From a virus, in the IMG/VR virus record IMGVR_UViG_3300023196_000475, positions 1-22,113 of that record: a DNA stretch of 22,113 bases; one strand, given 5' to 3'. The translations under genes were made by a program, and so were the position numbers. Under the pieces are notes generated by a model that was not told where the DNA came from, searched no databases, and saw only the letters and a list, made by a program, of their open reading frames with translations. Positions 8,469-22,113 of the stretch are shown piece by piece. Within the stretch, counting starts at the first letter, position 1; every line of letters begins with the position of its first letter.

Positions 8469-8497
8469 AATCTAGTAGCAATATGTGTGCTAGTCAA
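8469..8497 (-). promoter_or_regulatory. Possible internal sigma70-like promoter
   Basis: On the minus strand TTGACT (8497-8492), a 17-base spacer and TAGATT (8474-8469) precede the 130-residue gene, with the -35 box inside the end of the helicase gene. The -35 matches five of six consensus bases, the -10 four of six. It could give extra expression of the ssDNA-binding protein subcluster. Confidence 0.35.
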
Positions 8498-10028
8498 GTA
8501 TTTCTTTATAAAGATCTATCATTTTTGTGTGTACGTCTATTCTATTATCTAATAGTGTGTAAACACGTTTTTCTACAGGTGATCCATGAAGCTGCACAAC
8601 GGTGCATTTGTGCTTTTGTCCTGACCTGTGAACACGAGCGTTTGCTTGTGAATAAGTTTCTAAAGAACTAGTTGGCCCCCACCATACTACAGTGTTAGCG
8701 GCTGTTAACGTAACACCGTGTGCAGCAGCTTGTGGTTGTATAACAAGCACTCGTGGGTCTGGTGTTTCTTGAAACGTCTTAAATATCTGTGTTCTGTTTG
8801 GTGCAGATACATCACCCCTAATAATATCAGTTGTAATACCGTCTTTACGCAACTTTTCTGTCAGAATGTCTATCGTGTGCTTGAACGGTACAAATATTAA
8901 AATCTTCTGACTAGACTCGTCAATTACCTCACGTAATACTTTATAGCGATGCGAGATGTCGAACTCTAATACATCACTAGCATCGGTGTACACAGCCCCT
9001 GCTGATATCTGTAACAACTTACTCATAACTACAGCGGCATTTATTGCGGTTATTTGTTCACCTGTAATCTGCATAACTAGTTTTTTACGCAACTGTTCAT
9101 AATATTTCTTTTGTTGGCGAGTAAGCTCGACCTCACGTTTAACGTACACCATGGGTGGTAGGTCAAGACATTCTTCTTTTGTAAATCGTATGGCAGGTTG
9201 GAGTGCATTAAACACTATGTCTGTTGCAGTCTCTTTTGGAATCCACTTAAAATTTGTTATCTTAATCATTATCATGTCACGAAAAGAACCAAAGAAACGC
9301 GGCACTGCTGTTGGGTTTACTAATTTTGCTAGTCCATAAGCATCTAGAGGGCTTTGTGCGGCAGGAGTTCCTGTCATCATCCATAACCATGTGTCTGTTT
9401 TTAATAACTTATTTAAAGTCTTCCAACGATTAGTTTGCGCATTTTTATAATGTGTAGCTTCATCGACAATAATTAAGTCAAACCCTCCGTTTGCTATCTC
9501 GTCAGCTATAATCGCCACACCGTCATAGTTTATAATGACATAATCAGCACCTTGTTCTATTATTTCTTTTCGTTTTTTACTGCTACCATAAGCTACATCT
9601 ACGCTACGATGCGGTGCAAATGTAAACAAGTCATCACGCCATGCGCTATCCATGATCGAGAGCGGGCATATAACCAACACACGATTAATAACTTTTTTGT
9701 TAAGTAGAAAATCAGATGCCCATATTGCACTGGCGGTCTTACCTGTGCCTTGCTCATTAAAACAAAACGCTCTTCTGTTTAATGTTAAAAAAGCAGATGT
9801 TGTTTTCTGATGCGCAAAAGGCTCATAGCTGCCTGTCCATGAATATTGTTTTTCTATGGGTGAAGGGGCTTTTATGTTTAGGTTTTTAAGGACTTGTGTC
9901 TCGTCTACACCCCATTTGACCACTACCTTGTTATCAGACAGCATCCTGCTTTGAGGTATAACCTCCGTTACTTGTTGAGGGTTTCGCAACCGCAACAACA
10001 AAGCTTTACCATTTTCTATAATCTCCAC
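8490..10028 (-). CDS. SNF2/DEAD-like superfamily 2 DNA helicase
   Basis: A 512-residue helicase with all main SF2 motifs: a Q-like HQ at 73-74, Walker A GTGKTA at 94-99, a DEATH box at 189-193, motif III MTGTPAA at 218-224, and motif VI QANARVHRSGQ at 461-471, the last typical of SNF2/Rad54-related phage helicases. It would translocate on duplex DNA, remodel forks or branch-migrate recombination intermediates. The start codon is GTG, fixed by AAGGAGAACATA just before it. One of the nine 17-bp palindromes lies immediately upstream of that ribosome binding site, so initiation of this gene could be controlled by it, as DNA operator or RNA hairpin. The neighbouring HNH and Cas4-like genes suggest a joint recombination or repair role. 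Confidence 0.9.
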   Translation of the reverse strand: MEIIENGKALLLRLRNPQQVTEVIPQSRMLSDNKVVVKWGVDETQVLKNLNIKAPSPIEKQYSWTGSYEPFAHQKTTSAFLTLNRRAFCFNEQGTGKTASAIWASDFLLNKKVINRVLVICPLSIMDSAWRDDLFTFAPHRSVDVAYGSSKKRKEIIEQGADYVIINYDGVAIIADEIANGGFDLIIVDEATHYKNAQTNRWKTLNKLLKTDTWLWMMTGTPAAQSPLDAYGLAKLVNPTAVPRFFGSFRDMIMIKITNFKWIPKETATDIVFNALQPAIRFTKEECLDLPPMVYVKREVELTRQQKKYYEQLRKKLVMQITGEQITAINAAVVMSKLLQISAGAVYTDASDVLEFDISHRYKVLREVIDESSQKILIFVPFKHTIDILTEKLRKDGITTDIIRGDVSAPNRTQIFKTFQETPDPRVLVIQPQAAAHGVTLTAANTVVWWGPTSSLETYSQANARVHRSGQKHKCTVVQLHGSPVEKRVYTLLDNRIDVHTKMIDLYKEILD

Positions 10029-10040
10029 TATGTTCTCCTT

Positions 10041-10057
10041 GTTAGTGGCTCACTAAC
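10041..10057. repeat. 17-bp palindrome copy 1 (centre GCT on plus strand)
   Basis: GTTAGTG-GCT-CACTAAC, perfect 7-bp arms. It overlaps the stop codon of the HNH gene and ends four bases before the helicase Shine-Dalgarno core. Confidence 0.9.
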
Positions 10058-10295
10058 TTTTTTTATAATTACGACTGCGGTTTTTCTTTGGGCTTTCTAG
10101 CCGTGTACCGTCTTTGTTACTACCTCCCTTGGATAAAGCCTTCTTATGACTAACGTCTTTACCTTTACGCTTTATACCCTTCTTATCGTACTCACGTCTT
10201 GCACGTTGACGTTCCATTCTGTCGGGGTGTTCACCACGCTCTTTTTGTTTTTTGTATTCTTTTTTGTATGGTCTAGGTGATTTTGTGTATGGCAT
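10053..10295 (-). CDS. Small HNH-endonuclease-like protein
   Basis: This 80-residue, extremely basic protein ends with an HNH-like core: D47-V-S-H50, KALSKGGSN60 and a final N72 in PKKNRSRNYK. The spacing and the DxxHKK...GG(S)N...N pattern match short phage HNH proteins. The N-terminal half is Lys/Arg/Glu-rich and may simply bind DNA. With no cysteine pairs it lacks the zinc knuckles of longer HNH enzymes, so it may be a minimal nickase, a packaging-linked nuclease or a catalytically weak DNA-binding protein. GGGAG lies eight bases before the ATG. Its stop codon TAG is part of palindrome copy 1. It starts directly after the Cas4-like gene, with no gap. Confidence 0.7.
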   Translation of the reverse strand: MPYTKSPRPYKKEYKKQKERGEHPDRMERQRARREYDKKGIKRKGKDVSHKKALSKGGSNKDGTRLESPKKNRSRNYKKS

Positions 10296-10961
10296 TTAAT
10301 TACTCCCATTGTGAACACACTCTAACACTACGCAATGTCGCCTACATAATCCACTAGGATTAGCGTTCCAAACATCTTTTTTAAATGCAGTCTCCATGCG
10401 TTTGTAATTATTTAACCACTTAGACCAAAGAACTGGCATCATATCTCTTGTGTAAGTATCTTTAATAAGGTCTCTAGATATTACAAACAACAACCCTGCA
10501 CGCACAGTGTTGATTTCGGGGTAGTGTTTGAATGTGGCTAATGCCATCAATTCCAACTGACCTTTATCCGCATATTTAGCGGATTTGCTAGTCTTGTAGT
10601 CCACCACCCAAGCAGTGCTTTCATCTAGAATAACTAAATCTGCGATGCCACGCCACCAAACTTTCTTGTCAAAGAAGCCACACGGCTCAAGGTTTTCATC
10701 CAGACCCATTTTTATTTCACATAACTTGTTACCACGTTTAGCTTTAAGGCCATCCAGCGCCGGCACTACAAATTTAAAATTATCAGGAACAGGTGTGCCG
10801 TCACGCACGTATTCTTCTGCCGCGAGGTGAAATGCAGTGCCGTATGACATAGCATCACTTGTAGGTTCAGAGTAATCTTTGGCAATCTTTAAATGATAGA
10901 ATTGTTTAGGGCATTGCTCAAACGCTTTAATTCTACTAAATGACCACGGCTTGATGCTCAC
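10296..10961 (-). CDS. PD-(D/E)XK nuclease of the Cas4/RecB type
   Basis: The 221-residue protein carries the RecB/Cas4 nuclease order: SFSRIKAFEQC at 7-17, GTAFH with H45, GIAD ending in D108, catalytic D121-Y-K123 and QLE from Q135. Four cysteines, C17 near the N-terminus and C206, C210, C215 near the C-terminus, match the spacing expected for an iron-sulfur cluster as in Cas4 and AddB-type nucleases. It would resect or trim DNA ends, probably with the helicase and polymerase. The start is GTG, and the first four bases overlap the polymerase stop (GTGA), a sign of coupled translation. No cas1 or cas2 gene is near, so a CRISPR role is unlikely; phage recombination or host DNA degradation fits better. 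Confidence 0.85.
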   Translation of the reverse strand: MSIKPWSFSRIKAFEQCPKQFYHLKIAKDYSEPTSDAMSYGTAFHLAAEEYVRDGTPVPDNFKFVVPALDGLKAKRGNKLCEIKMGLDENLEPCGFFDKKVWWRGIADLVILDESTAWVVDYKTSKSAKYADKGQLELMALATFKHYPEINTVRAGLLFVISRDLIKDTYTRDMMPVLWSKWLNNYKRMETAFKKDVWNANPSGLCRRHCVVLECVHNGSN

Positions 10962-12784
10962 TCACAATCTCCATATGACTTGCCAGTACCAGACTCGCAG
11001 TTGATAGGCAGACCTTCTGCCCAGTCAGGTGTCCACCGCATACACTGTTCAATGTACGCTTGTGCTTCACCCACTTCTTCGTCACGAACACAACATACAA
11101 CAGAGTCATGCACTGTTAACACTACGCGATGTTTCTTAGCTATCTGTAGCATTTGCTCACCAATGATGCAACGAGCAATAGCTTGGCATACATTCTCTAT
11201 GACTTTACCGCCATAAATACGGTTGCGTCCACGTCGCACTTGGTAGTGAAACTCCGCTCCCCTTTCAGTAGTATCGAACCCAAGGTCGTCATAACGCAAT
11301 AGTAATCCAGAGGGCAGTCGTATAGCGTTGTCTTGAGGCATTACTTTTAGAACACTATCTAAACCTAACGATGCTTCATCTTTTCTAGACAGGGCCACCA
11401 GCACTTGTTGAGCATCACGCCATAACTTGTTTATCTTCCAATTAGCTTCGCGATAGATTTTTATAACGCGCCTTGCTTCTTCAATGTCCATATCAAAACC
11501 AAAGTTTTTTAGCTGTGCTTGGAACTTCATAGCCCCCATGCCATAGCCTGCGCCAAGGATTGTGGTCTTACCAACAAACCGTTGGTCTTTAGTTACGTCG
11601 CATTCTTGCACACCATATATACGTGATGACATCTTTACGTACACATCCTCACCCGCCCTGAACGCAGCGGTGAGATCGTCTTGCTCTGCAAGCCAAGCCA
11701 GTACTCGCGCTTCTATCTGTGATGAGTCTGCATCTATTAACGTATGCCCTTCAGGAGCAGTGATGCTACGCTTTAACTTCTTACCGTCTACTCCACGGCT
11801 AGGTAAATTTTGTAGATTAATTTTATCGTCACCGCCCCATCTACCAGTGTGCGCGGCATAGTATCTAACAGGCACAGGCAACAAGCCTCGTTTTGCTATA
11901 TCAATAAATCTTTGGGTTCGTGTCTCTTCCAATGTAGATTTTGTGCCTAGTCGTGCCGCGACTAACGCTTGCACCTGTGGGTTTTCGTGTTCTGCCAAAG
12001 CTTTGAACTCTTCGTCCGATTTTGCAAATGCCCAAGTATCCTTGCCTGTTGCAGGACTTAACTTCTTAGGAGGAGATACATTTAAGTGCAGGAGTAACTC
12101 TGCAAACTTATCATTACTCATCAAAACATCTTTAGACACGTTAGCTTGCTCTAACAGCTGGTCTTTGCGGTCACGCGTATCTGTTAGGTGTTGTTCTAAA
12201 AGACCTAAATCTAAATCTAATACTGGTTGAATAAACATGCGCAACGTGAGGTCAATAAGTTTAAGTTCTTGCCGAGGAAAGTATTTTGCCATGATTAGAA
12301 ACAATTTGTATGTAAGGTCAACATCATTAACACAATAGTCACCATACCTACCCAGTTCACTCTCCGTAAAATCCTTACGCTTCTTACCAAGGGCTTGTAC
12401 TACTTCTGTTCCTTTCACACCCACGCTGTACTTTTCGCTAACTGCTTTAAGACTTGCGCTAGTTTCCACACCATGTATAGCGCGAGCAATACACATAGTA
12501 TCTGCATACACACGCGGTTGAATACCATACCGCCAGTTTAAAATCGCACCATCAAACATTGTGTTATGACAGACCAACATGGAATCGTCCCAATCGAACG
12601 ATTGTAGATACTCTTTAAGTTGTTCGTGTGTACCACTTGCCCATTCAGTTGCTCTGTCATTAAGTTTAATACCTACTCCGATTACCTCAAAATGAGGGTC
12701 ACGAATGTAGGCTTCTGTGGTTAACTTCGACAGAGAATAATCCCTGTCGTAGTATGTTTCAAAGTCGAGTGTAATTAAATCCAT
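10958..12784 (-). CDS. polA: Family A DNA polymerase with 3'-5' exonuclease domain
   Basis: This roughly 608-residue replicative polymerase has an active-looking proofreading domain: Exo I D7-F-E9, Exo II N73-TMF-D77, Exo III Y149-CVN-D153. The polymerase domain follows: motif A near 348-359 (LIDADSSQIEAR), motif B R401-FVG-K405-TTI-L409-GAG-Y413-G, and motif C VHDS near 557-560. There is no 5'-3' exonuclease domain, as usual in phages. L409 corresponds to position 762 of E. coli Pol I. Motif C ends in Ser where E. coli has Glu. The start ATG overlaps the stop of the upstream gene (TAATG) and its own stop overlaps the nuclease start, so the three genes are translationally coupled. Confidence 0.95.
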   Translation of the reverse strand: MDLITLDFETYYDRDYSLSKLTTEAYIRDPHFEVIGVGIKLNDRATEWASGTHEQLKEYLQSFDWDDSMLVCHNTMFDGAILNWRYGIQPRVYADTMCIARAIHGVETSASLKAVSEKYSVGVKGTEVVQALGKKRKDFTESELGRYGDYCVNDVDLTYKLFLIMAKYFPRQELKLIDLTLRMFIQPVLDLDLGLLEQHLTDTRDRKDQLLEQANVSKDVLMSNDKFAELLLHLNVSPPKKLSPATGKDTWAFAKSDEEFKALAEHENPQVQALVAARLGTKSTLEETRTQRFIDIAKRGLLPVPVRYYAAHTGRWGGDDKINLQNLPSRGVDGKKLKRSITAPEGHTLIDADSSQIEARVLAWLAEQDDLTAAFRAGEDVYVKMSSRIYGVQECDVTKDQRFVGKTTILGAGYGMGAMKFQAQLKNFGFDMDIEEARRVIKIYREANWKINKLWRDAQQVLVALSRKDEASLGLDSVLKVMPQDNAIRLPSGLLLRYDDLGFDTTERGAEFHYQVRRGRNRIYGGKVIENVCQAIARCIIGEQMLQIAKKHRVVLTVHDSVVCCVRDEEVGEAQAYIEQCMRWTPDWAEGLPINCESGTGKSYGDCE

Positions 12785-13317
12785 TACGAATTTAATTCTG
12801 CCGCTAGAGCCATGTAGCCTGCCGCATCCCTAAAGTTATCCATGTTATTTGAATTACTTGACCTAGCAACTTTAAGTAGTGCCAACATAATTGGAACTTG
12901 CTCTGGCTGTATGTCATAACCTGTGTAGCCATACCATAACTTGGCAGTCAAATACGCATTGCTGTAAAACTCTCCGTGTTGTTTTTCTCTGTCACCAGAT
13001 ACCAACGCTTCTGCTTCTTGTAGTATTGTTGACCGCACTCTATCTTTAGGAGTTTCATCTACCTTATTCTCCAACGCATACGTGTTGTATGTGTTTCCAG
13101 AGTTATCTTTAAAAGTTTCTGTTATGACAGGTTGCACATTAAGGCTCTGTGCTTCTTGCTCAAAAACTTCTTTTGGTGTACCGCTTTTTGAACGTAAGGT
13201 GTACACATACTTTTTACTGCACCCACACGCTTTAGCCACATTTTTTGTTTTTGATAATGGGTGTTTTAGTAAATACTCAATTACTTTTAGTTTTTTTGAT
13301 TTCTTTTTCATCGCCAT
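12784..13317 (-). CDS. Helix-turn-helix protein fused to DUF6378-like domain
   Basis: The first 50 residues are very basic and end in a helix-turn-helix, TKNVAKACGCSKKYVYTLR, suggesting DNA binding. From about residue 95 the sequence EALVSGDREKQHG, then NAYLTAKLWYGYTGYDIQPEQVPIMLALLKVARS and NFRDAAGYMALAAEL, matches what I recall of DUF6378, a common small phage domain near nucleotide-metabolism and replication genes, related in style to MazG-like helical folds. The biochemical role is unknown. The start ATG follows TAGGAGAACAAA, the same leader class as the helicase and ssDNA-binding protein genes. It overlaps the polymerase start by one base. A regulator sensing a nucleotide is possible but speculative. 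Confidence 0.7.
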   Translation of the reverse strand: MAMKKKSKKLKVIEYLLKHPLSKTKNVAKACGCSKKYVYTLRSKSGTPKEVFEQEAQSLNVQPVITETFKDNSGNTYNTYALENKVDETPKDRVRSTILQEAEALVSGDREKQHGEFYSNAYLTAKLWYGYTGYDIQPEQVPIMLALLKVARSSNSNNMDNFRDAAGYMALAAELNS

Positions 13318-13333
13318 TTTGTTCTCCTATTGA

Positions 13334-13561
13334 TTATTCTAGTGGTAGTTCTAGTTGTTCTGGTTCTTCTGCTTTTTTTAATGACGCAGACAACAATATG
13401 TTAAAGTGGTTCAAAGCGGCTTTTAACTGGTTTGTATCAAACTCACTCTGTTTAATCTTGACGGTTATATTTTTTATCTGGTTAACAACATACTTCTGGT
13501 CGTCTTTTAAATCGTCATAAGTATACTCGTTACCATCTACTGTTATCTTCTCAGCACTCAT
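13334..13561 (-). CDS. DUF6447-like small protein
   Basis: I start this 75-residue gene at the ATG at 13561, nine bases after GAGGAGG; a longer TTG start is possible at 13579. The first 20 residues, ITVDGNEYTYDDLKDDQ, form the beta-hairpin signature I recall from DUF6447, followed by a long helix with heptad-like spacing (VNQIKNITVKIKQSEFDTNQLKAALNHFNILLSASL) and an acidic, proline-containing tail. Proteins of this kind are small phage accessory proteins of unknown function. It overlaps the zinc-binding gene upstream by 11 bases and is followed closely by the HTH-DUF6378 gene, so it belongs to the replication operon. Confidence 0.65.
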   Translation of the reverse strand: MSAEKITVDGNEYTYDDLKDDQKYVVNQIKNITVKIKQSEFDTNQLKAALNHFNILLSASLKKAEEPEQLELPLE

Positions 13562-14102
13562 CTTCTTCATCCTCCTCAAGGGATTTAAATGTTGTTATCT
13601 TACGTTTTTTTATATGAGCTTTTAATTGTTGTACATTTTCAAATCCTTTCATGCCTAAACCTTTACTACCAACAACCTTGCCACAATCGACACATATAAA
13701 CTCTGTATGTCCATACTGTGCCAACATAATCTCACCCCACGTACAAGGGGGTTGTGCGCATACAACGCATACATCACCATGCCATATTAACTTATTGGTA
13801 TCTGGGTCTATTTCTATTAAGTTGTTAGCGTGCATATCAGTAGCGGATACACTGTGATGACAATCATCTATCCAGTTTTCTTTCATGTTATAATAAAAAG
13901 AAGAGCTACTATCTACAATACTTGCTTCGCGAGTATTCTTCTTTGCCTGTCTTGCCGATAGCTGTCCGTGTTTGTAGGGTTGCAATTCTTCGTGCGGTGC
14001 AAGCCTCTTAATCTTTCTAGCAAACGGCTTGTATTCTTCTAGTATAGTTTCCACTCCATACCCCCTTAAAACTTCTTTACGTCGTTTAGATAGTCTTTTC
14101 AT
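13551..14102 (-). CDS. Cysteine-rich zinc-binding protein of unknown function
   Basis: The ATG at 14102 with AGGGA seven bases upstream is preferred over a TTG at 14186 whose extension would run through a GC-rich hairpin. The 183-residue protein starts with a basic segment (KRLSKRRKEVLRGYG), has a central HH pair in DDCHHSVSATDMH and a C-terminal zinc-ribbon-like part: CVVCAQPPC and, about 25 residues later, CVDCG. The histidines and five or more cysteines suggest one or two metal sites, perhaps an endonuclease VII or HNH-like fold, but I cannot identify a catalytic motif. The tail is acidic (SLEEDEEDEC). It lies between the VRR-NUC gene and the DUF6447-like gene. Confidence 0.65.
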   Translation of the reverse strand: MKRLSKRRKEVLRGYGVETILEEYKPFARKIKRLAPHEELQPYKHGQLSARQAKKNTREASIVDSSSSFYYNMKENWIDDCHHSVSATDMHANNLIEIDPDTNKLIWHGDVCVVCAQPPCTWGEIMLAQYGHTEFICVDCGKVVGSKGLGMKGFENVQQLKAHIKKRKITTFKSLEEDEEDEC

Positions 14103-14124
14103 GTCATTCCCTATAAGTCGGATA

Positions 14125-14149
14125 GGGGGGTTGGAACATAAAACCCCCC
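14125..14149 (-). promoter_or_regulatory. GC-rich hairpin before the zinc-binding gene
   Basis: GGGGGGTT and AACCCCCC form a perfect 8-bp stem around a nine-base loop. No T-run follows on either strand, so strict intrinsic termination is not supported; attenuation, message stabilisation or processing is possible. Confidence 0.5.
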
Positions 14150-14224
14150 CACCCTTGAGGTCACAGTCAGAGAAAGGGATAGCCAACTGCCCTCATTGCA
14201 ACGGATAATTACGGCTCTCATTGC

Positions 14225-14527
14225 TTACCGTCCAAACTGTATCGAAGTGAGTTCTTCCACAACCTCACTGATATTGTCCTCGCGTATAACCAACGCGATT
14301 CCACCCTGTTTGGAAATATTGTCTAGTGCTAACTGCTGTAATGGTGTGGGTTTGTTTTTACCCGCCTTACACTCGATGCCAAAGAATGACCCACGATAAC
14401 AACCTACTATGTCTGGCACACCACTAGTGCCATACCCACCAGTAACTGGGTAGAAGTAGTATGCACCCAAGTTCTTTAACACTATAGTTACTTTCTTTTT
14501 TACTTTAGCCTCTGGTGTCATAGCCAT
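14225..14527 (-). CDS. VRR-NUC nuclease (PD-(D/E)XK)
   Basis: A 100-residue stand-alone VRR-NUC domain. The core is GTSGVPDIVG with D39, then a beta-strand leading to E52-C-K54 and TPLQQL, the usual PD-(D/E)XK plus trailing glutamine pattern. Stand-alone phage members cleave branched DNA such as Holliday junctions, so it probably resolves recombination or replication intermediates before packaging. The ATG at 14527 directly abuts the stop codon of the tiny membrane ORF upstream (TAG then ATG), with no spacer, implying re-initiation. The size matches the family's short phage members. Catalysis is inferred from motifs only. Confidence 0.9.
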   Translation of the reverse strand: MAMTPEAKVKKKVTIVLKNLGAYYFYPVTGGYGTSGVPDIVGCYRGSFFGIECKAGKNKPTPLQQLALDNISKQGGIALVIREDNISEVVEELTSIQFGR

Positions 14528-14623
14528 CTAAGCCAACACAAACACAAAAATCATTACTAAATACATCGTGATAAAAAATAACGATGCTACAATAAACTCT
14601 GCAAAAATTTCCCATCTACTCAT
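14528..14623 (-). CDS. 31-residue predicted membrane protein
   Basis: A very short frame starting at the ATG at 14623. After MSRWEIFAEF the rest is a single hydrophobic helix (IVASLFFITMYLVMIFVFVLA) of membrane-spanning length. Upstream lies a purine-rich GAGGGGGCTAAGAG that can serve as ribosome binding site. Its stop codon touches the VRR-NUC start. It is preceded by a hairpin and, further out, by palindrome copy 2. Size, single membrane helix and exact abutment to the next gene support it as real; possible roles include lysis timing, superinfection exclusion or membrane anchoring, none shown. Confidence 0.6.
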   Translation of the reverse strand: MSRWEIFAEFIVASLFFITMYLVMIFVFVLA

Positions 14624-14652
14624 CTCTTAGCCCCCTCGGAACTGGTTTCAGC

Positions 14653-14676
14653 GAGAGGTAGTTTGACCCACCTCTC
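14653..14676 (-). promoter_or_regulatory. Hairpin before the 31-residue membrane gene
   Basis: GAGAGGT (14653-14659) and ACCTCTC (14670-14676) form a perfect 7-bp stem with a 10-base loop, between palindrome copy 2 and the ribosome binding site of the tiny membrane gene. No T-run follows. Confidence 0.45.
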
Positions 14677-14692
14677 ACCTAAGATTTTTAAT

Positions 14693-14842
14693 TTATGTTA
14701 GTGCTTCACTAACATTTTTTACGTTGTTATCTTTTTCCAACTCGACTAGCTTTTCATAAAAACCTTCATACTCGGTTTTTAAGTCCTCACCATAGCAACG
14801 AAACCATAGCTGTCTAATCTTTTCTGTTGTTACTCCATTCAT
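14693..14842 (-). CDS. 49-residue hypothetical protein ending in a palindrome copy
   Basis: The frame starts at the ATG at 14842 inside the end of the preceding gene (29-bp overlap), with AAAGGGA about six bases upstream. The product is soluble and charged (TEKIRQLWFRCYGEDLKTEYEGFYEKLVELEKD), probably helical. Its last residues, NVSEALT, are encoded by palindrome copy 2, so the repeat is part of the gene's C-terminus. No family recognised. Support comes from the ribosome binding site of the same GAAAGG class as other right-hand genes and from filling the gap between neighbours. Confidence 0.55.
   Translation of the reverse strand: MNGVTTEKIRQLWFRCYGEDLKTEYEGFYEKLVELEKDNNVKNVSEALT
14697..14713. 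repeat. 17-bp palindrome copy 2 (centre CTT)
   Basis: GTTAGTG-CTT-CACTAAC, perfect arms, located in the last codons of the 49-residue gene and two bases before its stop codon. Confidence 0.9.
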
Positions 14843-15119
14843 CTTTTTCCCTTTCTTCGCACACCCAAAACGTGTGCTTGTCTATCCTACGACCTACACC
14901 TTCAATCTCAGGTGTAGGAGGGATTGCGTCAGTCAACATAAGTATCGCAAGCTTCTTCTGCACCCACAAGGGTAAATCATCTACACTAAGATAAGTATCA
15001 GCTAATGTGTTGTCAACCCTTTCCATACCAATGCATGATACTTGTACAGTATTTTTATCAGGGCTTATTGAAACACGGTATAACGTGTCATTACCTGACA
15101 ACATAGAACATACTCTCAT
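14814..15119 (-). CDS. Hypothetical protein, paralogous to the C-terminus of the upstream gene
   Basis: About 101 residues from the ATG at 15119; GTG at 15125 and ATG at 15104 are alternatives, none with a strong Shine-Dalgarno. The segment LPLWVQKKLAILMLTD...GVGRRIDKHTFWV aligns by eye with LPEEIMGKLAVLNMVD...DVGYRVDESMFYV at the end of the preceding 295-residue protein, and the upstream beta-stranded parts also look alike. It is probably a duplicated and shortened copy of that C-terminal domain. The tail is charged (EEREKDEWSNNRKD). It overlaps the 295-residue gene by about 29 bases. Function unknown. Confidence 0.65.
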   Translation of the reverse strand: MRVCSMLSGNDTLYRVSISPDKNTVQVSCIGMERVDNTLADTYLSVDDLPLWVQKKLAILMLTDAIPPTPEIEGVGRRIDKHTFWVCEEREKDEWSNNRKD

Positions 15120-15978
15120 CAACACGATACCCTACATCATCTACATAAGTTTCATTGTCTACCATATTGAGTACAGCTAGCTTACCCATTATTTCTTCTG
15201 GTAAGTTGTTAGTGTAACGCACAAAGTCATCGTGTGGTGCGCCACCGTCATATAGGTGCAAGTGTACATTATCCACAGTACCAACATGAAACGTCTGCGT
15301 ACCAAACTTTTGAGACACACGAACAAAATACATATTGATAGGTTTGTCACAAAGTTCTTTGTATGCATCCTTGAACTGAAACATAGTAGCTAAGTCCTGA
15401 CCGAAAGACGCATCAATAAATTCATGTCCTGTGTCCACAATATTACGTAGTTCAATCATCATTCGACTAGCAGTTGATTCGTGGTCAAACAGTCTACGCA
15501 TGGTATGTCGATACTCTGTGCTTGCATTACTCTTACTCTCTCCTGATGCGGATGTTACCTCATCTCGTTTGATTGTTGCCAACTCAAGTAATGAATAGTT
15601 ACGTAAGTAACGCTTGGCATTGCGTACACCTGTTACTATGTTAGCCGTCATCTTCATGTGATACTGCGTTTGATATGAACCATACTTATCGTTGGTTATA
15701 GTGCGAGAACCCACTGCATATTGAGGGTCGCCTTGCACCTCTGTACGGAAATCACCATACCCGATAAACCCCATTGGATATGGCTCGTCAGGATAGTAAA
15801 TCCATACTGAGTTACCATCCCTTCTTACAAACTCAACCCCACGGAAAGACTCACGTACTTTTGTCATGAACAGTCGCAAGTTACTGTACGTTTCACCTTC
15901 CATCGACACTTGGTCAATCTGTCCTGTCTTACTCCCTATAAGAGTTTTGACATAAGTCTTAAATCCTTTACTCGACAT
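15091..15978 (-). CDS. Hypothetical protein of 295 residues in the ATPase-VWA neighbourhood
   Basis: No family is recognised. The N-terminal 100 residues look mixed alpha/beta (FRGVEFVRRDGNSVWIYYPDEPYPMGFIGYGDFR), a helical middle follows (TGVRNAKRYLRNYSLLELATIKRDEV), and the C-terminal 80 residues form a beta-rich unit ending MFYVVR that resembles the next gene. It begins only a few bases after the preceding stop (TGAAATG) and overlaps the next gene, so it is cotranscribed and probably translation-coupled with the 319-residue gene. Its position directly downstream of the VWA gene makes it a candidate client or adaptor of the ATPase-VWA pair, which is only inference. Confidence 0.75.
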   Translation of the reverse strand: MSSKGFKTYVKTLIGSKTGQIDQVSMEGETYSNLRLFMTKVRESFRGVEFVRRDGNSVWIYYPDEPYPMGFIGYGDFRTEVQGDPQYAVGSRTITNDKYGSYQTQYHMKMTANIVTGVRNAKRYLRNYSLLELATIKRDEVTSASGESKSNASTEYRHTMRRLFDHESTASRMMIELRNIVDTGHEFIDASFGQDLATMFQFKDAYKELCDKPINMYFVRVSQKFGTQTFHVGTVDNVHLHLYDGGAPHDDFVRYTNNLPEEIMGKLAVLNMVDNETYVDDVGYRVDESMFYVVR

Positions 15979-15979
15979 T

Positions 15980-16939
15980 TCATTTACCCTTTACTGTTTT
16001 GGTGAAATTACACACACGGTTAATCCACCTGTTGTATTGCATCTTAACTTCTTTTATGTCGTCCTTTGACTGAACACGTCGTATTGTACCATAACTATAG
16101 ATAAAGTCAACTGCCATGGCTATACGTAGTGGATGGTCTTGTTTTGTGATAATTTGAATCGCAAGGTCGCCATCGCAAGACTCAAAGCCTCTCGCGTTCC
16201 ACATCTTGTTACGCATATCGTTTATATACTGCCAGTCATCCACAGGGAGCATCGGCGCAACCGTACTCATCCACGCAAGATAACTTGCTATGGCATCTTT
16301 GTGTTTTGCTTTCCGCGCTTTGTTGACTACGATACGCGGTGGCTTTGGTGCATCGCGCTCGCTACTAGCCAACGTAAAGTTATTATCATCACGAAGGAAT
16401 GTAAGTGACGAGCCATCATCCGTTGCTCGCATCCACGAGTTCCAACTAGACCTGTCGCTAGGCTGTTCGTATATACCCCTTGGCACATACATACACTTGG
16501 GTAGGTAGTGTCTACCGCTGTTCATGTGTGACGCTATGAACTGCTTGCCATTCTGTACGATGAACACCATACTGCGTGGTAACATCCTATCAAGAAACGA
16601 GTAGTGGTTCATGTGCGCCCCCTGACCTATACCATTACGCACAGTAACAGTTTCAGTGCCATCCTTGTGTCGTCTCCAGCATATCGGTGCTAATGCTACC
16701 ATCTCTGCTTGTGTTGGATTGGATTTTTTAAAGTACCATTGATGCACGTCATCAGCGTAGCCACCGCACATGAGTAGATAACAATTATCTGATATCTTCT
16801 TTACACGCTCCCAGTCACGCGCTCGGTCGGCGATAGGTCTAACATCTTTGTCTTTGTTCTTACCACGCATAGGCTTGGTGTTGTGGTAACGCTCCGCTAC
16901 CTGTGCGAATGTTCCTAAATTTTCATAAGTCATAGCCAT
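15980..16939 (-). CDS. Hypothetical protein of 319 residues downstream of the VWA gene
   Basis: The start ATG at 16939 follows AGGAGAT located within the end of the VWA gene, so expression is tightly linked to it. The sequence is rich in Trp, Tyr, Arg and His (CWRRHKDGTETVTVRNGIGQGAHMNHYSF, NSGRHYLPKCMYVPRG) and contains a basic segment RIVVNKARKAKHKD, compatible with nucleic-acid binding. I see no catalytic motif or membrane segment. The next gene begins two bases after its stop region. No family recognised; it appears to be part of the same module as the DUF3150-like, AAA+ and VWA genes. Confidence 0.75.
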   Translation of the reverse strand: MAMTYENLGTFAQVAERYHNTKPMRGKNKDKDVRPIADRARDWERVKKISDNCYLLMCGGYADDVHQWYFKKSNPTQAEMVALAPICWRRHKDGTETVTVRNGIGQGAHMNHYSFLDRMLPRSMVFIVQNGKQFIASHMNSGRHYLPKCMYVPRGIYEQPSDRSSWNSWMRATDDGSSLTFLRDDNNFTLASSERDAPKPPRIVVNKARKAKHKDAIASYLAWMSTVAPMLPVDDWQYINDMRNKMWNARGFESCDGDLAIQIITKQDHPLRIAMAVDFIYSYGTIRRVQSKDDIKEVKMQYNRWINRVCNFTKTVKGK

Positions 16940-16940
16940 C

Positions 16941-18185
16941 TTACATATCTCCTGATTTTACATGGACTGTGATGCCACAGTCTGGTTTAGCTGATTTGTG
17001 GTCAATGATTACCCACAGCACAGGGCATGACCACTGCCCCCATGAACCTCCAAGGTAGCCATCAGTAATCACGATAACAGCTTGTGGTGTGATGTTCTTG
17101 TCGGTCATGTATGCGGGTACACACTCAATCGTAGTACCGCCACCACCCTTGGGTCTGGTTGATGCGACCATCGTGTCGAGTTCGTGCGTCTCGTATCGCT
17201 CGTCCTGACATACTTCGGTATCCCAATACAGTAAGCGTACTGCCTCTGGGTGTATGGTGTCAGCGATTGATTTGATTTCTGTTAGTGCTACACTAACTTC
17301 TCTGTCACCAATCGAACCTGACATGTCAGTGGCAATCACTAACTCGTCAACACGCTCTGATATACCGCTCGGCAGGTAGTGACCCATACCCACATACCGC
17401 CTGTTGGGTCTGCGCCATGTTGAATAGTCATTGCCTGTACACGTTGTAGTAATGAAGTCACGCATGACCTCGCGCCAGTTGACTTGTGGTTGGAGTAAGT
17501 CAGCTAGGTCGCGGTCGCCACCCGACCCCATCTTGCCTGCAATCAACGCACCCTGACGTACAGCCTCGTCAATGTCACGCGCAAGTTCACGTTGCTCATC
17601 AGCCGATAGTGCTTGTGCGCCCTCGAAGTCATGCTCATCGAACGGTTGTGGTGACGCGTTACCTTGTGTGTCATTACCACCCTGTCCCCTGGCGGTACTA
17701 CTGTTGCCACTTTGACCGTTCTGTTCTTGGTCGCGCTTGAGTAGATTGAACACTTGTGCGGTGTCCATGCTACGATACTGCTCGTCATAACAACCCATAG
17801 TGAGTACACCTGTCATGGTTGCAAACTTGTCCTCTTTGTTGTCGTCAGCAATCTTAAGATTGATAACAAAGTCCATAGCCATGTTGGCAAGTTGTGGGTT
17901 CTCATCGTGTAGGTGTCTCCATGTGACAAGATGACGATACAGTTTGTGATAGCACTCATGCAGTATGAGAAAGCGAAACTCTGCATCGTTCAGTTGTTCA
18001 GCAAACTCACGACCATACACCTCGTCACGTCCGTTGGTGTATGCGGTTGGTGTCGTGTCACATATGCGCTTGTCACCAATCATGAGTATACCTGCAAGTG
18101 CTACATACTTGGGGTTGCCCATGATATCAATGACACATTTGTTTAGTCGTTGTTCGATAGTAAGTTCTTTTCCAATGGCTAGCAT
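16941..18185 (-). CDS. Metallopeptidase-like plus VWA domain protein (DUF2201/CobT-like)
   Basis: The 414-residue protein combines two domains. The N-terminal one has HECYH at 76-80, an HEXXH metallopeptidase-like motif, with AMDFVINLKI at 103-112 as possible further ligand region, as in DUF2201 N-terminal domains. A low-complexity Gln/Gly/Asn/Ser linker covers about 153-182. The C-terminal VWA domain has a complete MIDAS: D287-M-S289-G-S291, T351/T352 in GGGGTTIE, and D375 in VITDGY. VWA proteins of this type partner with MoxR/CobS AAA+ ATPases, placing metal or remodelling targets; here the ATPase gene lies one small gene upstream. Palindrome copy 3 lies inside, coding VSVALT just after the MIDAS. 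The start overlaps the small acidic gene (ATGCTAG). Confidence 0.9.
   Translation of the reverse strand: MLAIGKELTIEQRLNKCVIDIMGNPKYVALAGILMIGDKRICDTTPTAYTNGRDEVYGREFAEQLNDAEFRFLILHECYHKLYRHLVTWRHLHDENPQLANMAMDFVINLKIADDNKEDKFATMTGVLTMGCYDEQYRSMDTAQVFNLLKRDQEQNGQSGNSSTARGQGGNDTQGNASPQPFDEHDFEGAQALSADEQRELARDIDEAVRQGALIAGKMGSGGDRDLADLLQPQVNWREVMRDFITTTCTGNDYSTWRRPNRRYVGMGHYLPSGISERVDELVIATDMSGSIGDREVSVALTEIKSIADTIHPEAVRLLYWDTEVCQDERYETHELDTMVASTRPKGGGGTTIECVPAYMTDKNITPQAVIVITDGYLGGSWGQWSCPVLWVIIDHKSAKPDCGITVHVKSGDM
17281..17297. repeat. 17-bp palindrome copy 3 (centre CTA), inside VWA gene
   Basis: GTTAGTG-CTA-CACTAAC, perfect arms, in frame within the VWA domain where it encodes VSVALT. Confidence 0.9.
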
Positions 18186-18325
18186 CCTTCATCCTCCTCT
18201 ACTTCAAGTGTTTCATAATTAGCGTTAGACCAATCCATACAATCAATGCCGATTGCTTCGGCTTCTTCCCAGTCCTCTGCTTCGGTTTCTACTTCGATAG
18301 TGCATATGATTTTATATCTAGGCAT
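18179..18325 (-). CDS. 48-residue acidic hypothetical protein between AAA+ and VWA genes
   Basis: A short frame from the ATG at 18325, with AGAAAGGACAG just upstream, ends in a stop overlapping the VWA start codon. The product begins MPRYKIICTIEVETEAEDWEE and is strongly acidic, ending EVEEDEGC; the first part may form a beta-strand followed by a helix, like many tiny phage proteins. No family recognised. The ribosome binding site, the ATGCTAG overlap and acidic codon pattern argue it is real. Its position between ATPase and VWA partner suggests a cofactor or regulator of that pair, unproven. Confidence 0.65.
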   Translation of the reverse strand: MPRYKIICTIEVETEAEDWEEAEAIGIDCMDWSNANYETLEVEEDEGC

Positions 18326-18340
18326 CTGTCTGTCCTTTCT

Positions 18341-18362
18341 GGGTGAGGTATCAACCCCACCC
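18341..18362 (-). promoter_or_regulatory. Hairpin before the 48-residue acidic gene
   Basis: GGGTGAGG and CCCCACCC pair over eight positions with one mismatch around TATCAA. It sits between palindrome copy 4 and the GAAAGGA ribosome binding site. No T-run follows, so it is not a standard terminator. Confidence 0.45.
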
Positions 18363-18370
18363 TGTTAGAT

Positions 18371-18387
18371 GTTAGTGAAGCACTAAC
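18371..18387. repeat. 17-bp palindrome copy 4 (centre AAG)
   Basis: GTTAGTG-AAG-CACTAAC, perfect arms. It shares one base with the stop codon of the AAA+ gene and precedes the hairpin of the 48-residue gene. Confidence 0.9.
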
Positions 18388-19481
18388 TATTTCTTGTCAG
18401 CCGCGAACATATAGTTGTTGTCCATAGCCCATTGTGTGAACTTCTTGTTTGTCATAACAAGTGACTGCTTGGTATACTTTGGAGCGCGTACCCCGTTGGC
18501 AAACATACCCTGTGCTTCTTTGTCGAGACGAACAAGGTAGTCCATCCATGGGTCAAGCCAGTCTTTCTCTAAAGATGCTAGGGTGCGATACACGACCATA
18601 CATACGCCGGCAGCACTGGTAGGTATCTTAGCAGTTTTAGGTTCTTGTTTGATGGACTCGGCACTCGGTAGTTGGTCAGCTAGTTTGACAAACGCCATCA
18701 AGTCCATCGCGCCACGCTCACCGATAGTGCCAATGAGCATAGCTGTTGAGGTCTGGTCGTCTAGTCCGTCTCGTACTTTGAGTATGTCGCTTGCCGCTTC
18801 CAACGAGCGTGGTGTAACAAACGCGGCTCGGTTTTGCTTGGGATGGAAGATGTACGGATTGTCGTCTGGGTCTCTGATGTCCTCAAACGAGTAGAAAATT
18901 TGCGGGTTGTCTTTTGCCCACCCAAGTAACGTATGGTCGATGTCATTATTAATACCCCATTCTATCCACTCCATGTTAGTGGGTTTACGTGTTTGCACTA
19001 CGGTCATGCGGTTGCGTGCGTGTGGTGGTAGTAAGTCACCGACACCCTCTGAACCCTTGTTGGTCGTAGCAAATATTAAGCTGTCAGGATGTAGCGTGTA
19101 GCTACCGACCTTACGTTCTAGTATAAGACGTAAGAGTGCGTTCTTGACCGCAGGATTAGCTTTGCCAAACTCATCAATCATGAGTATGACAGGTGTGTGG
19201 TTGTGTACACCTAGTTCTTCGTTAGTCAGATACGTGACGTAACCTGTGCCATCATCTAGCTTTGCAAGGTTGGGTATTGATATGTCACCCAAGTCCTTGG
19301 TTGTGCAATCGAAGTAGCATGGTGTGTGGTCAGGTAGTTCTGCTGATAAGGTGGTTAGTAGTGACGACTTACCAGTACCCATGTCACCTTGCACAAGTGT
19401 GGTGCGTTTGTGACCTGTCTTGAGAATTGCATTGGCTACTTGGTCAAGTCCTAATGCGTACATTGCTGTTGCTGTATTCAT
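18387..19481 (-). CDS. MoxR/CobS-like AAA+ ATPase
   Basis: I start at the ATG at 19481, six bases after GGAG; an ATG 12 bases earlier (19493) lacks a good ribosome binding site. Counting from that earlier ATG, Walker A GDMGTGKS is at 36-43, Walker B VILMIDE at 102-108, sensor 1 ATTN at 142-145, and arginine-finger candidates R160 and R162 in HARNRM. The size and motif style fit single-domain MoxR/CobS-type AAA+ ATPases, which act as hexamers with VWA partners to remodel proteins or insert metals. The VWA gene is downstream, a DUF3150-like gene upstream. CobS-type cobalt chelation is less likely because no cobalamin genes are present. Palindrome copies flank the gene on both sides. Confidence 0.9.
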   Translation of the reverse strand: MNTATAMYALGLDQVANAILKTGHKRTTLVQGDMGTGKSSLLTTLSAELPDHTPCYFDCTTKDLGDISIPNLAKLDDGTGYVTYLTNEELGVHNHTPVILMIDEFGKANPAVKNALLRLILERKVGSYTLHPDSLIFATTNKGSEGVGDLLPPHARNRMTVVQTRKPTNMEWIEWGINNDIDHTLLGWAKDNPQIFYSFEDIRDPDDNPYIFHPKQNRAAFVTPRSLEAASDILKVRDGLDDQTSTAMLIGTIGERGAMDLMAFVKLADQLPSAESIKQEPKTAKIPTSAAGVCMVVYRTLASLEKDWLDPWMDYLVRLDKEAQGMFANGVRAPKYTKQSLVMTNKKFTQWAMDNNYMFAADKK

Positions 19482-19506
19482 GGTAATCTCCATTTCTTTG
19501 GTTTGT

Positions 19507-19523
19507 GTTAGTGAGCCACTAAC
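19507..19523. repeat. 17-bp palindrome copy 5 (centre AGC)
   Basis: GTTAGTG-AGC-CACTAAC, perfect arms, occupying the 33-bp gap between the DUF3150-like gene and the AAA+ gene, upstream of the latter's start. Confidence 0.9.
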
Positions 19524-19526
19524 AAG

Positions 19527-20444
19527 TTATAGGCTGATTGATGGTAGTGATTTGATGACCTCATCCACGGTGCGCTTAGTCTCAGACCGTAGGTGAGCAT
19601 CCTCGCGCAGTGCATCAGCATTGACACCGCGTAGTGCGTCTTCCAGTTTCATGCGTGCAGTATTCATCTGGCTGTTGTTTGATACGTTACACACGTTAAG
19701 AAGTTCTACCATATCGAGGACGTTGGTTACGAGTGTGTCGCGAAACACTTTCTTGTCCTCGGATGGTGAGTAGTCGAGTCGCTCGGACATAGCAGATAAC
19801 GCTCTGTGTGTGCGTTGCCACACGTCATCCATTGCGTTGTTTAGCTGTGTCGAGTAGTAGGTTTGGTAGTGGTCGCGTACCTGTTCGGTAGCCTCGTTGC
19901 CGATGTCGATACGAAAATCCCCTGCGTCAGGTAGCGGTATGTACGACAAGCGAAACCCAAACTTGTTGCGTAGGCTGTCCACAGATGGGTACTCATCACG
20001 ATTGAATAAGTCACCTAGCTTTGCGGATGCTTGGGTAATCTCCCATTCGTAACCTTGTAGAAACGTGTCAACAAGTCTGTCGTACTCATTTTGGATGTCA
20101 GTCATTGCTTGATGGTACTTGAAGTACTGAGCCGTTGGCAAGAGACGTAGCCCTGTGTCCGACCATGGCATAGTCATAGCATAATGTATGTTACGGCTGT
20201 TAGCTGTAAACTTTTGAACAGCCATGAGTTCTTGGCAATCAGCAAGTAACTTCTTGTGTACAGACGCGACACCCGATGCGGCAAAGTTAGCATCCGTAAC
20301 ATCGTCTGATGCTTTGCGGTCTTTCTTGCGTCCTGTCCATGTTGAGATGGATAACTCACACAACATTGCTGAGGAGCCGATACTTGGTGCGCTGTGACTT
20401 GTTAGTGTGTCACTAACATCTTGGTTTGTGATTACGTTTTGCAT
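19527..20444 (-). CDS. DUF3150-like protein upstream of the AAA+ gene
   Basis: A 305-residue, mostly helical protein with no catalytic motif. Its length, helical middle (YEWEITQASAKLGDLFNRDEYPSVDSLRNKFGF) and place directly before an AAA+ and a VWA gene recall DUF3150 proteins, found in the same three-gene order on phages and plasmids; this is from memory and gene order, not a search. The start ATG at 20444 follows AGAAAGGACACATT and lies about 58 bases after a near-consensus promoter. Palindrome copy 6 is in frame close to the N-terminus, encoding VSDTLT. It probably acts with the ATPase-VWA pair as adaptor or substrate. Confidence 0.75.
   Translation of the reverse strand: MQNVITNQDVSDTLTSHSAPSIGSSAMLCELSISTWTGRKKDRKASDDVTDANFAASGVASVHKKLLADCQELMAVQKFTANSRNIHYAMTMPWSDTGLRLLPTAQYFKYHQAMTDIQNEYDRLVDTFLQGYEWEITQASAKLGDLFNRDEYPSVDSLRNKFGFRLSYIPLPDAGDFRIDIGNEATEQVRDHYQTYYSTQLNNAMDDVWQRTHRALSAMSERLDYSPSEDKKVFRDTLVTNVLDMVELLNVCNVSNNSQMNTARMKLEDALRGVNADALREDAHLRSETKRTVDEVIKSLPSISL
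20401..20417. repeat. 17-bp palindrome copy 6 (centre TGT), inside DUF3150-like gene
   Basis: GTTAGTG-TGT-CACTAAC, perfect arms, in frame from codon 10 of the gene, about 85 bases past the promoter -10 box, so within reach of early elongation. Confidence 0.9.
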
Positions 20445-20501
20445 AATGTGTCCTTTCTTGACAACTGTTGATAGAAACGACTGAATCTCAATCGTGGGTA
20501 T

Positions 20502-20530
20502 ATATTACCACAAGTGGTGGAGAATGTCAA
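20502..20530 (-). promoter_or_regulatory. Near-consensus sigma70 promoter for the DUF3150-AAA-VWA operon
   Basis: On the minus strand: perfect -35 TTGACA (20530-20525), a 17-base spacer and -10 TAATAT (20507-20502) preceded by TGG, an extended -10 feature. It lies about 58 bases before the DUF3150-like start. The spacer and its edge contain ACCAC-AA-GTGGT (20507-20518), a small palindrome that could bind a regulator. Confidence 0.8.
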
Positions 20531-20709
20531 CGTTTGTCAGAACGTGTTGTTGTGTATGTATGTGTGTATTTGGCTGTAATGTTCTGTAATGTTCTTGTGT
20601 TCGCATTTGTAAGTCACTGTAAATACTGCAATGTTCTATTGTTCTTTTTATGAGGATTTTGGACACTTGCCTCGATGCCCTCTCGGAGACGAGAACATTT
20701 GCGTAGCGT

Positions 20710-20726
20710 GTTAGTGAGCCACTAAC
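20710..20726. repeat. 17-bp palindrome copy 7 (centre AGC)
   Basis: GTTAGTG-AGC-CACTAAC, perfect arms, within the noncoding repeat region, next to the AT-rich stretch. I saw no clear -35 box for a promoter here. Confidence 0.9.
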
Positions 20727-20775
20727 AACTCTTTATATTATTTATAAAATAGAACATTACACTACTAATACAAGA

Positions 20776-20795
20776 TTAGATAAGTTTAGATAAGT
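20776..20795. repeat. Tandem 10-bp repeat in candidate origin
   Basis: TTAGATAAGT occurs twice without a gap, followed by a degraded third unit (TCTGATAGGC). It lies among the GAACATT repeats and may be a helical-phase protein binding site. Confidence 0.7.
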
Positions 20796-20918
20796 TCTGA
20801 TAGGCACAAGTCGGCATTGCCTACCACGCGTCACCACGACACACCACGGAAATGCAATGTTCTAATCTAACAAAAAAAAAACGAACATTGCAGAACATTA
20901 TAAAGAACATTAGAACAT

Positions 20919-21020
20919 TGGCTCAACGCGGCTCTAAGAACTGGTCTCAACGTGTTAGTGTGTCACTAACATAACGCGTCACTATGCGACTACTGGCTCA
21001 ACGCGGCTCTAAGAACTGGT
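20919..21020. repeat. 27-bp direct repeat pair flanking palindrome copy 8
   Basis: An identical 27-bp unit beginning TGGCTCAACGCGGCTC occurs at 20919-20945 and 20994-21020, offset by 75 bp. Palindrome copy 8 lies between. This looks like a local duplication or a paired binding site at the edge of the candidate origin. Confidence 0.85.
20954..20970. repeat. 17-bp palindrome copy 8 (centre TGT)
   Basis: GTTAGTG-TGT-CACTAAC, perfect arms, between the two 27-bp direct repeats. No well-spaced promoter boxes were found beside it. Confidence 0.9.
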
Positions 21021-21032
21021 ATCGCAAGGCAC

Positions 21033-21061
21033 AAAAAAAGGCAGGGAAATAAATCCCTGCC
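21033..21061 (-). terminator. Rho-independent terminator after the 50-residue membrane gene
   Basis: Minus strand: GGCAGGGA and TCCCTGCC form a perfect 8-bp stem with a six-base loop, followed by seven T (21039-21033). It ends transcription of the 176- and 50-residue genes before the candidate origin. Confidence 0.85.
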
Positions 21062-21067
21062 TGATTA

Positions 21068-21220
21068 TTAATTTGCTAGTAAGTAGATGATGCCCCAGAT
21101 AGTGTAGTACTGACTATCTTCAACGCCAAATATCCATAGCCAGTCTATCCATGACAATATGGCTAGTGTAATGACTAGGTAATAAAGTATTCTACCAAAT
21201 GTATCCTCAATCTTAATCAT
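21068..21220 (-). CDS. 50-residue predicted membrane protein
   Basis: A short frame from the ATG at 21220 with GAAAGGGAAAC just upstream. It reads MIKIEDTFGR, then a hydrophobic helix (ILYYLVITLAILSWIDWLWIF), a short polar turn (GVEDSQYY) and a second short hydrophobic stretch (TIWGIIYLLAN), so one long and possibly one short membrane segment, with Trp and Tyr at likely interfaces. The gene is enclosed between two hairpins with the same 8-bp stem; the downstream one is a terminator. No family recognised. An accessory, moron-like or membrane-signalling function is possible. Confidence 0.7.
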   Translation of the reverse strand: MIKIEDTFGRILYYLVITLAILSWIDWLWIFGVEDSQYYTIWGIIYLLAN

Positions 21221-21252
21221 AGTGTTTCCCTTTCAGTTAGGAGTACAGGATA

Positions 21253-21273
21253 GGCAGGGAATAAATCCCTGCC
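21253..21273 (-). promoter_or_regulatory. Second copy of the GGCAGGGA/TCCCTGCC hairpin
   Basis: The same 8-bp stem as the terminator at 21033-21061, with a five-base loop, placed between the 176- and 50-residue genes. No T-run follows, so it may be a leaky attenuator, a 3'-end stabiliser or a processing site. Confidence 0.6.
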
Positions 21274-21283
21274 TGATAAGATG

Positions 21284-21814
21284 TTAGTGTTTGACGTGTA
21301 GTGTAGTTTTTGCCTTGGCTATTGCCTTACCAAGCTCGACTAAATCCACGCCATCGATGCCTTCGCTATTCTCGATAACCTTAGAACAATCGTTAAGGTT
21401 ATCAGATATACGTTGGCTGTCTGACCGCGTGCGAGACGTGTTGCCTGTTAACGCGTTATCCTCTCGTTTGGCTAGTGCTGTCTTGAAATCGTTGCGTTTA
21501 GCACCTATCTGCTGTTGGCCAGTACGGCGCGTTAGTTTCTGCGCATCGGTCATGCCCTTGGCACTTGGCGCGCTCACTAGCTGTTGCACCCTAGCTGAGA
21601 AACCTAACACGATAGCCGTGTTGATTTGCTCAAACAGCTCAGAACTAGCAGTCGATTTGCTGTCTTTACCTTTGGGTGAGATGAAATCAGTTGATTTAAA
21701 ACCATCTGCAACAAGTAAATCAACAGCGTTTGCCTTGGCGCGGTCACCTTTTAGTGTAGTTGATACGGCATTGGTAATCGCTGATGCTGTAGCATCCTTC
21801 AGTAATGTAGACAT
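21284..21814 (-). CDS. Hypothetical 176-residue protein, first leftward gene in window
   Basis: The ATG at 21814 has AAAGGAAC eight bases upstream. The product is rich in Ala, Ser, Thr, Lys and Asp, predicted mostly helical and soluble, with a polar middle (TRRTGQQQIGAKRNDFKTALAKRED) and a helical C-terminus (DLVELGKAIAKAKTTL). No motif or family recognised. A palindromic leader (21841-21863) and a promoter-operator lie upstream, and its stop codon is part of a palindrome half-site (CACTAAC on the minus strand). Being first after a regulated promoter, it may be an early or repressor-controlled protein, which remains inference. Confidence 0.75.
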   Translation of the reverse strand: MSTLLKDATASAITNAVSTTLKGDRAKANAVDLLVADGFKSTDFISPKGKDSKSTASSELFEQINTAIVLGFSARVQQLVSAPSAKGMTDAQKLTRRTGQQQIGAKRNDFKTALAKREDNALTGNTSRTRSDSQRISDNLNDCSKVIENSEGIDGVDLVELGKAIAKAKTTLHVKH

Positions 21815-21840
21815 AATATGTTCCTTTCATAGAACGTTAT

Positions 21841-21863
21841 CGGTAAGACGGTATGCCTTACCG
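21841..21863 (-). promoter_or_regulatory. Palindromic leader hairpin of the 176-residue gene
   Basis: CGGTAAG and CTTACCG form a perfect 7-bp stem around nine bases in the 5' leader, ending about 27 bases before the ATG. It could bind a regulator or fold in the RNA. Confidence 0.5.
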
Positions 21864-21927
21864 TGATATAGTTATCTCACAGTATAAGACGTTTTACAAT
21901 GGATAGCCTGTAAACGTGTTATTATTT

Positions 21928-21944
21928 GTTAGTGTAGCACTAAC
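21928..21944. repeat. 17-bp palindrome copy 9 (centre TAG), at operator position
   Basis: GTTAGTG-TAG-CACTAAC, perfect arms, beginning immediately downstream of a promoter -10 hexamer for leftward transcription, so it would cover the start site. Confidence 0.9.
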
Positions 21945-21972: not shown

Positions 21973-22113
21973 AACGTGACTATCGTTATCCTACCCGCCC
22001 CCCATGACCCGTTATGTTGCGTTAGTTACATACACATCTATATATTACTAATTTACACGAGCAATCCGGTTTTTTCTGAGTTCGACCCCCCACCCCCCTA
22101 AATATAGGAACAC
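21973..22113. other. Noncoding right end with C-runs
   Basis: I see no credible gene here; rightward and leftward frames are short, without ribosome binding sites. The minus strand has G-runs, including GGG-TCAT-GGGGGG-C-GGG (22010-21994) and two six-G runs near 22085-22098. The region is the upstream flank of the promoter at 21945-21972. Confidence 0.5.

Follow-up and report, generated by a model that had tools for sequence, protein, structure and literature searches.

Genes and palindromes of the window

The stretch of DNA that was analysed (hereafter the window) comprises 22,113 bp and is a linear fragment from an IMG/VR virus record. Its gene content is podovirus-like: PolA, an SNF2 helicase, a DUF927 primase-helicase, a T7-like SSB, an AAA ATPase resembling N4 gp24 and a VWA protein. 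Exact pattern matching retrieved nine copies of the palindrome GTTAGTG-N3-CACTAAC with perfect arms, for a chance expectation of 0 (100 shuffles). All nine fall in the leftward early operon and, the window being a fragment, nine is a lower bound for the whole phage. The features relevant to this analysis are the following:

7750–8046, minus strand: HTH_17 protein, considered as a reader of the palindrome but not preferred
8490–10028, minus strand: SNF2-type helicase (Pfam)
10041–10057, minus strand: palindrome GTTAGTG-GCT-CACTAAC (exact match), just upstream of the start of the SNF2-type helicase gene (10028)
10958–12784, minus strand: family A DNA polymerase (Pfam)
14697–14713, minus strand: palindrome (exact match) at a small ORF's end; the VRR-NUC nuclease gene lies downstream
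16941–18185, minus strand: VWA-like/DUF2201 protein (Pfam)
17281–17297, minus strand: palindrome (exact match) within the VWA/DUF2201 gene, read in frame as Val-Ser-x-x-Leu-Thr
18371–18387, minus strand: palindrome (exact match) overlapping the stop of the AAA ATPase gene
18387–19493, minus strand: AAA ATPase related to N4 gp24 (PHROG and N4 gp24 match), used as the query for relatives
19507–19523, minus strand: palindrome (exact match) between the stop of the DUF3150 gene and the start of the AAA ATPase gene
19527–20444, minus strand: DUF3150-family protein (Pfam), a conserved operon gene with a site in its 5' end
20401–20417, minus strand: palindrome (exact match) in the first codons of the DUF3150 gene
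20710–20726, minus strand: palindrome (exact match) in the noncoding control region
20954–20970, minus strand: palindrome (exact match) in the noncoding control region
21284–21814, minus strand: FG, the first early gene, whose 176-aa product is a candidate site-specific DNA-binding protein of a novel family
21928–21944, minus strand: first palindrome (exact match), in the noncoding control region, preceding the first early gene

The nine positions and the 14 perfect arm bases are those reported in an earlier note on this DNA, and its remark that the left 10 kb is devoid of copies was borne out as well, none being found left of 10041. The note also placed most copies at gene junctions or in the control region; this holds for five gene-edge and three noncoding copies, but not for the copy at 17281, which lies inside the VWA gene. 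The distances from site centre to nearest gene edge are, in order, 4, 12, 348, 8, 12, 35, 274, 322 and 122 bp. Allowing three mismatches added one weak match (21098), which is about the chance level.

The 21928 site is a candidate autoregulatory operator of the first early gene. It is adjoined by a sigma70-like match, TTGCCA-16-GATAAT (21972–21945; a consensus match only), which is not general among relatives. In many relatives, a G-rich run (GGGGTGGGGTACGGGTGGG type) is conserved on the early strand immediately upstream of the first site; in the window it lies at about 22080–22110, a position read from the ORF translation only, and it could possibly form a G-quadruplex. A conserved hairpin-like element (GGGTGGGG...CCTCACCC, about 18330–18360) directly follows the post-ATPase site. 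At the other end of the window, positions 1–3873 encode the C-terminal part of a giant virion protein with an HExxH motif and a DarB-like region; a profile of the full-length copies from relatives weakly matched an internal virion protein.

Palindrome classes and site placement in relatives

Scanning viral contigs for the window motif gave at least 119 stretches, among which many single-copy matches may be due to chance. An alignment scan with the ATPase yielded 80 loci, on which palindromes were searched de novo. A dispersed palindrome was present in 83 of the 86 loci found via the neighbouring ATPase gene, and the three loci devoid of it are short fragments or begin near that gene. Relatives of 60–67 kb mostly carry 7–9 copies each, located in the early/replication operon, with no copies in the divergent late operon. 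As regards prophage or host copies, a scan of bacterial genomes with the ATPase detected no relative.

The sequence of the palindrome depends on the lineage (GTTAGTG, GTTAGGG, GTTAGTC, TTTACGG, GTAGTGA and others). All classes are palindromic, with sites of mostly 17–18 bp, and most share the outer TTA...TAA while the inner bases vary, GTAGTGA being an exception. Spacers of 3, 4 and 5 bases were counted 264, 33 and 3 times, respectively, and others about 0 times, in loci partly chosen for a 3-base spacer; in G034, G036, G017 and G030, 4-base-spacer copies are interspersed with 3-base ones in one operon. The largest number of copies among the relatives, 20, was counted in G051 (L262, L263), whose palindrome GTTAGG-N6-CCTAAC has a free centre; no homologue of the first gene was found in the available stretch of this genome. 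GTTAGC-N6-GCTAAC hairpins with A-rich loops occur near Gam-like/HTH_17 genes at G015:7012 (L155) and G020:12833 (L151).

Mapping the copies against gene boundaries in relatives, a check proposed in the earlier note, showed that the sites concentrate at gene edges: over 496 sites in 70 genomes, the median distance to an edge is 45 bp, compared with 191 bp for randomly placed positions. No site lies in the body of the AAA gene (0/70) or of the polymerase gene (0/41), and a single one was found on the late side among 38 genomes. Many sites are 20–40 bp upstream of start codons. The positions seen in the window recur to different extents: the 600 bp preceding the first early gene contain a site in 38 of 46 relatives, and sites are found near the DUF3150 5' end (as a rule within the coding part) in 54 of 63, between the DUF3150 and AAA ATPase genes in 48 of 70, at the end of the AAA ATPase gene in 35 of 70 and upstream of the VRR gene in 25 of 48, and the mid-VWA site has a counterpart in only 5 of 63. 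All 67 coding copies share one frame, which is forced since the other two frames contain stop codons.

The palindromes are also oriented by their flanks. In the direction of transcription, an A follows the site in 95% of cases and a T precedes it in 67% (234 sites), and the 3' A bias is present in coding and noncoding sites alike. This asymmetry is a real orientation signal, unexplained by a plain dimer.

The first early gene and the exchange of sites

The FG family is present in 59 of the 86 loci, most of the remaining loci lacking that stretch of DNA. Given AAA identity, FG identity was associated with a shared palindrome class (r=0.53, permutation p=5e-4), the highest value of eight genes, with DUF3150 likewise correlating (r=0.40), the association being computed on related sequences, which limits the tests. 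In the helix residue after QQQxG, Asp accompanies an inner G in 18 FG clusters and Lys an inner C in 5, a correlation that was noticed post hoc, has three exceptions among 26 clusters and is equalled in strength by two other columns; the residue that tracks the innermost arm base is D109 in the window FG. The AlphaFold model of FG is all-helical (pLDDT 90.6). Searches of Pfam, PHROG, PDB and folds gave no match and no recognised DNA-binding domain, and the comparison with annotated phages gave no significant match. Homology to FG was undetectable in the first genes of G044, G045 and G056; the structure model of the G044 first gene was of low confidence (pLDDT 45) and was left unused. FG is the most likely reader of the palindromes and would represent a previously undescribed all-helical family. 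The HTH_17 protein (7750–8046) was not preferred as a reader, since its helix is near-invariant among the aligned copies, although these nearly all belong to the GTTAGTG class.

Pairs of closely related genomes allowed us to follow regulator and sites jointly. The window and G044 are 89% identical in AAA, 87% in Pol and 93% in SNF2; most named operon proteins fall within 80–93%, and several unknown proteins within 48–76%. Nevertheless, G044 has 11 TTTACGGAATTCCGTAAA-type sites and zero copies of the window palindrome, and no similarity to the window FG could be detected in its first early gene. The flanks of several sites align, the positions match and the site alone differs: a different palindrome occupies the place matching the 10041 site, and the 19507 site is swapped in place, as it is between G055 and G056. 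In this second pair (AAA 99%, DUF3150 93%, VWA 92%, Pol 91% identity), sites have likewise changed inside near-identical flanks and the first genes are unrelated. Since all the sites were replaced together, along with the first gene, in the two pairs that could be checked, these data suggest that the viruses encode a shut-off protein which evolves with its cognate DNA sites as lock and key. An apparent natural recombinant of two palindrome classes was also found (L231:7198-13071), with four GTAGTGA copies upstream, accompanied by the matching first gene, and four GTTAGTC copies downstream; this mixture of two classes indicates that sites not matching the first gene can persist for at least some time.

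How regulatory specificity evolves when a regulator and about ten dispersed sites have to change jointly has long been a puzzle, and such paired genomes are natural controls for this joint change.

Possible roles of the sites

The reading that we favour, and hold to be somewhat probable, is that the palindromes are the DNA binding sites of a phage protein, most likely FG, that shuts off early transcription. FG would bind the palindromes as double-stranded DNA, probably as a dimer. By occupying the first site, which immediately precedes the FG gene, it would regulate its own synthesis, and at the further operon sites it would block the start or the continuation of transcription by RNA polymerase, so that its accumulation would shut off early transcription. 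By analogy with phage immunity types, FG from a resident infection could further silence newly arriving phages if their palindrome class matched, which would favour the emergence of new classes. More tentatively, these apparently non-lysogenic phages may possess a superinfection-type specificity system, in which a fast-diverging new all-helical DNA-binding family and some nine dispersed palindromes that switch as a set would split near-identical phages into regulatory compatibility classes. The silencing of a prophage, which the earlier note envisaged, receives no backing from the 60–67 kb relatives, in which neither a tyrosine integrase nor a serine resolvase was found.

Could the palindromes act as RNA instead, i.e. 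as 7-bp hairpins with 3–4 nt loops controlling translation or the processing of the early messenger? The sites are limited to one transcribed operon, they are directional by virtue of the 3' A, a loop of 3 or 4 bases is tolerated and a 7-bp stem can be drawn for nearly every class. However, in the 48 genomes of the GTTAGTG class, which contain 259 exact sites, 17 of the 18 single mismatches break the pairing (one yields a G-U pair) and no compensatory, i.e. symmetric double, arm change was found. Comparison of arm covariation with arm fixity, also proposed in the earlier note, thus comes down on the side of DNA. Moreover, the stem is fixed and the loop free, the opposite of the pattern in most protein-RNA hairpins, classes such as TTTACGGAATTCCGTAAA are symmetric through the centre, and there is no Rfam match. 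By contrast, each palindrome comprises two 7-bp half-sites whose centres are separated by 10 or 11 bp, roughly a turn of the helix, and a single dimer could accept both 3- and 4-base spacers. The lack of compensatory changes, together with this spacing, leads us to favour a double-stranded DNA site, and we regard the RNA hairpin as quite improbable.

As a DNA site, the palindrome might still be a phage promoter, with FG as an activator or sigma-like factor, or an undetected polymerase, starting transcription just downstream, near the conserved A. It is the one-sided conservation of this A, in coding and noncoding sites, that keeps promoter models alive, and both the frequent location upstream of start codons and a layout resembling the N4 early promoters, which are conserved from -17 to +1 and contain inverted repeats (PMC4496689), agree with them. 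On the other hand, no T7/N4 RNAPII-type polymerase was detected, while the T7 and N4 positive controls matched (the N4 virion polymerase itself matched weakly, and a remote one could escape); the giant virion proteins, searched for a single-subunit RNA polymerase, gave no match; the loop is variable, whereas N4 hairpins require a loop G; and the site near the 5' end of the DUF3150 gene is typically inside the coding part. Nor was a -10/-35 pattern seen on one side only: sigma70 -10 boxes adjoining each site were also considered and rejected, scores being raised on both sides alike, which probably stems from the A+T-rich flanks. We therefore judge promoters unlikely, though less so than the RNA hairpin. 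Slightly less probable again than the latter is another role in DNA, namely replication start, partition, packaging or protection from host nucleases. Replication genes do lie in the site region and the G-rich run is conserved at the early–late junction, but placement at gene edges in one operon, with a late operon free of sites, fits transcription better, and lineage-specific replacement along with the first gene does not indicate a host factor.

The preferred reading, repression by FG, can be compared with known systems. The stoperators of L5 and other cluster A phages occupy gaps between genes, follow the direction of transcription and vary from one immunity group to another (PMC6550527, PMC9283540). 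Similarly, one site recurs here in many places, mostly in the short gaps between genes; it is oriented with respect to transcription (through the flanks of a palindromic core), and its lineage-specific consensus tracks the phage repressor, here the candidate FG. Unlike the 13-bp asymmetric L5 sites, which are read by a monomer, ours are palindromes, and they are confined to the early operon; FG is unrelated to the L5 repressor with its HTH and stoperator domains; and L5 phages are temperate whereas no integrase was detected here. The proposal of the earlier note is thus strongly supported by the relatives as regards one phage factor and many sites, but not as regards an L5-type repressor, from which FG differs in both sequence and fold. 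The system may work like a stoperator system, but a new, palindromic one, which we do not class as L5-type because site symmetry, repressor type and temperate life all fail to agree. If this is correct, stoperator-like control is not limited to mycobacteriophages but extends to a large uncultured group of phages, and FG would define a new DNA-binding family with a readable residue-to-base pattern.

The hairpin promoters of the N4 virion RNA polymerase are likewise directional inverted repeats of about 17 bp with a 3-base loop (PMC4496689, PMC3715699), and the phages studied here share the N4 gp24-like ATPase; N4, however, has three early promoters, an essential loop G and a virion polymerase, as opposed to some nine sites, a free loop and no detected polymerase. 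Lambda-type operators, which lie near an early promoter, are 17-bp odd-length palindromes, as is the window site, but the six lambda sites are clustered and bound by an HTH repressor, whereas ours are spread along about 12 kb.

Finally, a relative by capsid, the cultured cyanophage Pag-Yong1 of Planktothrix (L163), has 18 exact copies of GGTTCA-N3-TGAACC, of which 12 are intergenic versus 13% expected (p=1.7e-7). As in the window, these dispersed palindromes are mostly at gene edges; unlike those of the window, they have another sequence and are not restricted to the early operon, and no FG homologue was found in the 49 kb examined. Being cultured and carrying analogous palindromes, Pag-Yong1 would offer a practical model.
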